Positions 5,866-5,903 of a DNA stretch of 37,515 nucleotides are shown here, in pieces. The translations under genes and the position numbers were made by a program. Below the pieces are notes generated by a model. That model was given only the letters and a program-made list of their open reading frames with translations, had not been told where the DNA came from and did not search any database. Within the stretch, counting starts at the first letter, position 1; the number at the start of each line of letters is the position of its first letter. The DNA comes from a virus: IMG/VR virus record IMGVR_UViG_3300048597_000488, positions 1 to 37,515 of that record. One strand, written 5' to 3'.

Positions 5866-5903
5866 CTGCGCCGTTAGGGAGGGAGTGGCGCCCCTGACCT
5901 TTT
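5866..5903 (+). promoter_or_regulatory. Conserved 38-nt intergenic element, copy 1
   Basis: These 38 bases recur without a difference at 16380-16417 on the other strand, again between a DNA-binding gene and a GIY-YIG gene. Two competing stems are possible. GCGCC (5868-5872) can pair with GGCGC (5887-5891). GTTAGGG (5873-5879) can pair with CCCTGAC (5892-5898, one G-U), which is followed by CTTTT. The second could act as a weak terminator and the first as its rival. It could equally be a protein-binding or cleavage site on DNA. Confidence 0.6.

Follow-up and report, generated by a model that had tools for sequence, protein, structure and literature searches.

Why should two gene cassettes of a single virus, whose genes have diverged strongly, share an identical stretch of 38 nucleotides between their two genes? 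The window analysed here, which raises this question, is a whole IMG/VR virus record of 37,515 nt. The virus probably infects a cyanobacterium, as judged from its relatives and from the frequency of the palindrome GCGATCGC, which occurs 41 times in the window and which we take to be HIP1. The two cassettes, module 1 (5171-6780, + strand) and module 2 (17146-15742, - strand), have the same layout, with a regulator gene (Bro-N in one, KilA-N with MUG113 in the other) followed by a GIY-YIG or GIY-YIG-like gene. In both, the element lies between gene 1 and gene 2 on the coding strand:

5171-5860, + strand: module 1 gene 1, Bro-N regulator (PF02498; antirepressor PHROGs)
5866-5903, + strand: element copy 1, in a conserved block at 5856-5903 with weaker likeness up to 5920
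5929-6780, + strand: module 1 gene 2, GIY-YIG nuclease with a GTG start (PF01541, 26.8 bits, above the cut-off of 22.6)
16469-17146, - strand: module 2 gene 1, KilA-N plus MUG113 (PF04383, PF13455)
16380-16417, - strand: element copy 2, in a conserved block at 16427-16380
15742-16350, - strand: module 2 gene 2, GIY-YIG-like (PF01541, 20.3 bits, under the cut-off of 22.6), related to module 1 gene 2

Module 1 is flanked on its left by a tail terminator gene (PF13554) and on the other side by a gene at 6894, which has no Pfam match and is taken, from its position, for the tail tube gene; the neighbours of module 2 are a ribonucleotide reductase small-subunit gene and a DNA polymerase sliding-clamp gene. 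The second genes of the two modules share 24% protein identity over 159 columns (E 2e-13) and are different outside this shared part, and the structure predicted for module 2 gene 2 is of low confidence (mean pLDDT 39). BLASTP shows no relationship between the first genes (best E 6.0). Close to where the KilA-N gene ends, reading by eye shows an overlapping frame (16427-16490, - strand) that extends to a TAA located where the element begins, in a position equal to that of the module 1 gene 1 stop codon; this frame is perhaps a shifted or replaced gene 1 end.

The arms 5856-5903 and 16427-16380 are 96% identical over 48 nt. Their mismatches fall only at 5862 and 5865, and therefore the element is identical at 38 of 38 positions between 5866-5903 (+) and 16417-16380 (-), which confirms what the first-pass annotation had reported for these otherwise diverged modules. 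The window holds two copies, where shuffled sequences lead one to expect 0.00, and the repeat thus exceeds chance expectation. A weaker likeness (87% over 68 columns, 5856-5920) fills the whole gap, from the module 1 gene 1 stop codon as far as the gene 2 ribosome binding site. Since the second genes stand at 24%, the first genes are unrelated and identity between the leaders common to both cassettes (5061-5184 and 17257-17133) is 74%, the element is the best-conserved shared part of the cassettes. Had the element changed at the rate seen in the leaders, all 38 letters would have stayed the same with a probability of about 1e-5, by our own arithmetic and on the assumption of a shared history. 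Recent copying and selection are both possible sources of the identity, and two copies from one genome do not separate them. The suggestion that the element is a binding site of the BRO/KilA protein has become less likely, because the DNA-binding domains of the first genes differ, being Bro-N in one module and KilA-N in the other.

Both cassettes are mobile cargo. A search with the major capsid protein yielded 19 loci, the nearest being L005, L006 and L021. In L021, module 1 is absent and its flanking genes adjoin; L005 has at the same site some 3.4 kb of other DNA, in which a restriction-type helicase gene is accompanied by a stretch that looks HNH-like by eye. The module 2 site of that same record, locus L143, keeps the promoter and the leader hairpin (93% over 114 columns), and its homology to the window ends inside the hairpin. 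The cargo there is one gene of 316 aa with zinc-finger repeats (DUF4379, DUF723), and the C-terminal part of its product looks GIY-YIG-like by eye, without a family match. The leader thus stays in place under an exchange of cargo, and the intergenic element is to be counted with the two-gene cargo. Elsewhere in the window, a small gene at 1240-1575 without a Pfam match precedes the capsid gene, its other neighbour being a gene that ends at 1163; L005 and L006 lack this stretch, which hence looks like a further insertion.

This exchange of cargo bears on the main rival of the regulatory reading that we prefer below, namely that the 38 nt are a joint sequence of cassette shuffling, in which recombination at short stretches common to the cassettes exchanges cargo genes, and that they were recently copied from one cassette into the other and are either functionless or a mere homology patch. 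The absence and replacement of module 1 and the replacement of module 2 cargo under a retained leader agree with such a joint, as do the beginning of the conserved block at the module 1 gene 1 stop and the extension of the leader likeness into the gene 1 start. However, the leaders of the very same cassettes have diverged, and the counterpart in Aphanizomenon phage CL131 described below would have to be a matter of chance. We regard the exchange joint as doubtful overall, while it accounts for the identity almost as well as regulation does.

Two stems can be drawn within the element:

5868-5891, + strand: stem 1 with loop AGGGAGGG and arms GCGCCGTT/AGTGGCGC (copy 2 at 16415-16392, - strand)
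5873-5898, + strand: stem 2, GTTAGGG/CCCTGAC, followed by CTTTT, no better than in shuffles

In stem 1, GCGCC (5868-5872) pairs with GGCGC (5887-5891), and G-U pairs extend the helix to 8 bp around the loop (-9.0 kcal/mol); in stem 2, GTTAGGG (5873-5879) pairs with CCCTGAC (5892-5898; -9.1 kcal/mol). The first-pass annotation had described them as mutually exclusive, and both are indeed foldable and overlapping, but they show no excess over shuffled sequence: among 5000 dinucleotide shuffles of the 38-mer, 2221 have a stem of at least 7 bp and 589 (12%) have a pair of these kinds that exclude each other, and the 40-mer folds slightly worse than the shuffle average (z +0.72). The alternating stems are thereby ruled out as evidence by themselves, and the idea of a two-stem switch is not upheld, stem 2 being also without a counterpart in CL131. 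When the complete gap is folded, the structures predicted for the two copies contain neither of the stems. An Rfam covariance-model search of the whole window gave no match at E up to 5. A mini-gene from 5885 (GTG GCG CCC CTG ACC TTT..), considered together with a frame-keeping 3-nt difference between the copies, ends just before the module 2 gene 2 start and runs past the start in module 1; this candidate was set aside as too weak.

Stem 2 with its CTTTT(T) had also suggested an intrinsic terminator or attenuator that would stop some transcripts after gene 1, with stem 1 as antiterminator. The folding of nascent RNA up to the T run is consistent with this suggestion, giving stem 1 and stem 2 probabilities of 0.66 and 0.32 in copy 1 and of 0.16 and 0.82 in copy 2. 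Yet the consensus terminator scan, whose loop limit of 8 is exceeded by the 12-nt loop of stem 2, lists nothing at either copy, stem 2 is followed by one C and then merely 4-5 T, and the argument from shuffles and from CL131 weighs here as well. We therefore consider an attenuator distinctly unlikely.

Each cassette also has a leader hairpin in front of its first gene:

5115-5136, + strand: module 1 leader hairpin, behind a likely promoter (TTGACA 5079-5084, TAAAAT 5100-5105, spacer 15)
17182-17202, - strand: module 2 leader hairpin, behind a likely -10 box (TATAAT 17218-17213)

The module 1 promoter was read by eye and is absent from the promoter scan list. A resemblance between element and leader had been proposed; it is only partial, being limited in module 1 to AGGGAGG and CTGCGC and missing in module 2, whose leader has neither CTGCGC nor GGGAGG. 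AGGGAGG is found in the L143 leader too. Among BRO-N/KilA-N genes of cyanophages and cyanobacteria, a TATAAT/TAAAAT box lies closely before a hairpin in modules 1 and 2, L004 and L025, and the same combination is seen at CL131 gp062, at ORF105L and ORF064R of Planktothrix phage PaV-LD and at the L143 gene of the module 2 site. The arrangement is not restricted to BRO-N/KilA-N genes, since a formal scan detects box and hairpin together 3 times in the window, 4 times in CL131 and 11 times in PaV-LD; the scan rules are strict, so that some of the named leaders were missed.

These boxes give some ground for an internal promoter with a 5' leader for gene 2, since AATAAT stands at the block start of both copies, 6 nt before stem 1, much as TATAAT/TAAAAT stands just before the hairpin in several cyanophage BRO-N/KilA-N leaders. 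A -35 hexamer is missing, however, the promoter scan is empty there and the upstream sequence is unconserved, and an internal promoter appears highly improbable to us.

Some leaders constitute a family of their own, in which a TATAAT/TAAAAT box is immediately followed by a hairpin whose core, CGCGGYG...CRCCCA, is constant while its outer stem varies:

L145 45788-45856 (+) and 16748-16679 (-); L146 24097-24165 (+) (Planktothrix phage PaV-LD): CGCGGYG...CRCCCA leader
L004 3934-4001: CGCGGYG...CRCCCA leader, preceding a BRO-N gene

Across these four sequences 11 of 11 pairs hold, and the six that change on both sides do so always in L004 or in one sequence only. The family has no Rfam match at gathering score, and a model built on it found no further significant copy in 37 sources (L081, E 0.12). 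Another kind of leader, a GGTCNGTGACC hairpin followed by CCGTAGGCTGTGC ... AGCCCACGGAGGG, stands upstream of both the major capsid gene and the putative tail tube gene of this phage group:

Window 1593-1663 and 6821-6893: GGTCNGTGACC leader
L005 1090-1163 and 7876-7956: GGTCNGTGACC leader, with CCGT/ACGG changed on both sides to CCCT/AGGG in the second copy
L006 9935-10003: GGTCNGTGACC leader
L021 2835-2904: GGTCNGTGACC leader

The window further contains, at 34368-35293, tandem repeats of 138-141 nt encoding a repeat protein that by eye looks like a beta-propeller type.

Downstream of the stems, a further hairpin reaches the start of gene 2:

5895-5922, + strand: hairpin TGACCTTTT/AGAAGGTCA over the gene 2 ribosome binding site, module 1 only (the module 2 equivalent is not significant)

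When the complete gap of copy 1 is folded, the ribosome binding site lies within this hairpin and the GTG start within an outer helix. We shuffled the sequence upstream of the gene 2 ribosome binding site and recomputed the opening cost (500 shuffles, four settings). The module 1 cost was reached by 6, 14, 29 and 47 of 500 shuffles and the module 2 cost by 274, 461, 292 and 331 of 500; when 40 gene starts from the window are ordered by the cost of opening the stretch ahead of each start, the second genes of module 1 and module 2 come 7th and 36th, respectively. Sequestration as a mechanism common to both modules was rejected, as module 2 shows no excess; it characterizes module 1 and not the element that the modules share.

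In CL131, the Bro-N gene gp062 is followed by a 66-nt gap and then by the MUG113/T5orf172 gene gp063. The gap contains the hairpin GATCGCT-GGTTGGGTGGGTGGGAT-AGCGATC, whose stem letters differ from those of the element and whose G-rich loop is similar. It is the sole hairpin with at least 7 Watson-Crick pairs and a GGGNGGG loop in 112,793 nt on both strands, a likeness noticed post hoc, after the gap had been looked at. Hairpins of at least 7 pairs with loops of 8-20 number 179 in CL131, and the stem in question is built from halves of the HIP1 palindrome, of which CL131 has 209 copies. At least 5 pairs with a GGGNGGG loop occur in three hairpins of the window, two of which are the element copies. 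Compensating base changes in either stem, to which the first-pass annotation had looked for a decision, are found in part: with CL131 as the sole non-identical sequence, aligned by hand in a set of three of which two are alike in stem, 5 of 5 corresponding stem 1 pairs are kept and two of them are changed on both sides, and stem 2 has no partner. As a lead, the CL131 hairpin would thus favour stem 1. The protein gp063 does not significantly resemble the product of module 1 gene 2, its MUG113 part matches module 2 gene 1 (E 4e-7), and a search of 388 genomes at E 1e-10 yields no relative of it. At the DNA level, the CL131 hairpin region has candidate matches in 3 of 195 genomes.

Although annotated as antirepressor only, gp062 (L074, 493-1206) joins Bro-N to a BstA-like C-terminal domain (PHROG 6287, E 9e-17; PADLOC BstA, E 4e-17). 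This domain, together with the ability of BstA loci to carry a short DNA self-immunity element, lends something to the reading of our element as a DNA site, be it an aba-like self-immunity site, an operator or a site recognized by the gene 2 nuclease. Further points in its favour are the GIY-YIG relationship of both second genes and the reported repression by I-TevI of its own promoter. The GIY-YIG genes nevertheless differ outside their shared part, direct reading finds no CCCGCC repeat as in aba, and none of the 4 window proteins matches BstA in PHROGs or PADLOC, so we hold a DNA site to be very unlikely.

Further copies were sought widely. Exact pieces of the element (26-mer, 17-mer and 23-mer) are absent from IMG/VR, as is an exact 21-mer from GTDB genomes. 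BLAST with the element region found nothing in named phages, a single 17-nt chance match (E 0.018) in 21 related virus records, chance matches only in the L025 genome (best E 1.35) and nothing at E 0.01 in 386 cyanobacterial genomes. Gene 2 has no relatives in IMG/VR or named phages, and module 1 gene 2 has none in plasmids. Distant GIY-YIG relatives occur in 86 of 388 genomes; the 30 loci fetched showed nothing element-like beyond short chance matches and no G-loop hairpin, by script in 13 (reversed) and by eye in 17 (+ strand). PF10544 matched in 96 of 291 genomes, and 29 of the 30 loci fetched were read, with upstream genes judged by eye; neither GGGNGGG nor GGGNNGGG occurs in the 110 nt or less before the gene (a few loci were shorter). 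PF02498 matched in 48 of 292 genomes, and in all 30 loci fetched, inspected with our own ORF finder, no match adjoined a GIY-YIG gene by eye. One of the 21 related virus records, the large record of L003, has a GIY-YIG relative, and its sequence view shows no element. The literature searched contained no report of the element, no paper on KilA-N with GIY-YIG in a cyanophage and none that links antirepressor, GIY-YIG and stem-loop.

With these results, we tentatively prefer, at somewhat less than even confidence, a conserved stem-loop in the mRNA of the two genes that limits expression of the nuclease gene; we infer that it acts in RNA form, on gene 2 and downward. Such a post-transcriptional brake is preferred because the element lies on the coding strand, in the same place, with the same kind of gene downstream, and because CL131 has a counterpart. 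To this extent the earlier proposal of a regulatory element between the genes survives, being shared by diverged modules; its two-stem switch does not. The stem-loop would act in cis between the regulator stop codon and the nuclease ribosome binding site of a mobile cargo cassette and lower nuclease expression relative to gene 1. Its core would be stem-loop 1 with the purine loop exposed, stem 2 might form as an alternative in nascent RNA, and in module 1 the complete region might refold and thereby pair both the gene 2 start codon and its ribosome binding site. The same strand and place in the cassettes, zero differences against 74% in the leaders and the module 1 sequestration excess support the brake; module 2 without this excess, a complete gap without either stem and stems no better than shuffles count against it.

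We speculate further, and think it unlikely, that the element belongs to a class of stem-loops with a G-rich loop (GTTRGGGNGGGNG-like) and a freely varying stem, accompanying BRO-N/KilA-N + GIY-YIG pairs of cyanophages and setting the ratio of their products. Members of this class would perhaps act via protein binding or via the C-rich arm (CCCCCC) of the leader hairpin in the same transcript. Since the element is known from one genome and one possible counterpart, its weight is modest. If the brake is real, structured RNA control of nuclease cargo, known from T4-like phages, extends to cyanophage cassettes, and a constant leader plus an intergenic hairpin with exchangeable genes would make a marker for finding such cassettes.

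Among known systems, an intrinsic terminator or attenuator resembles the element in having a G+C stem followed by a short T run and an alternative overlapping stem; the element differs in its long loop (12), weak T run and negative consensus scan. The aba element of BstA loci, described as a short DNA self-immunity element (PMC8585504), is likewise a short stretch of conserved DNA within a locus encoding a KilA-N-type protein, whereas our element lies downstream of gene 1, is without CCCGCC repeats and is common to two unrelated first genes; a BstA-like protein, present in the CL131 locus as gp062, is absent from the window loci. According to the accounts of T4-like phages in PMC2988022 and PMC3014915, hairpins restrain homing endonuclease genes there. 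Like the element, the hairpins of T4 I-TevI, I-TevII, I-TevIII and segB and of Aeh1 mobE directly precede a phage nuclease gene of a mobile type, and the module 1 region has in common with them that ribosome binding site and start codon are paired. In the cassettes, the GIY-YIG domain of the gene downstream lies above the cut-off in module 1 and is weaker in module 2. The element differs in that its conserved part lies upstream of the binding site, and no late promoter was found inside the hairpin by a sigma-70-like scan, which may not fit the late promoters of this phage. Because the defining feature, a stably paired ribosome binding site in both copies, is found in module 1 and not in module 2, where sequestration shows no excess, we do not file the element with the T4/Aeh1 homing endonuclease hairpins; by analogy, it appears close in kind to them, a kinship that does not imply the same working mode.
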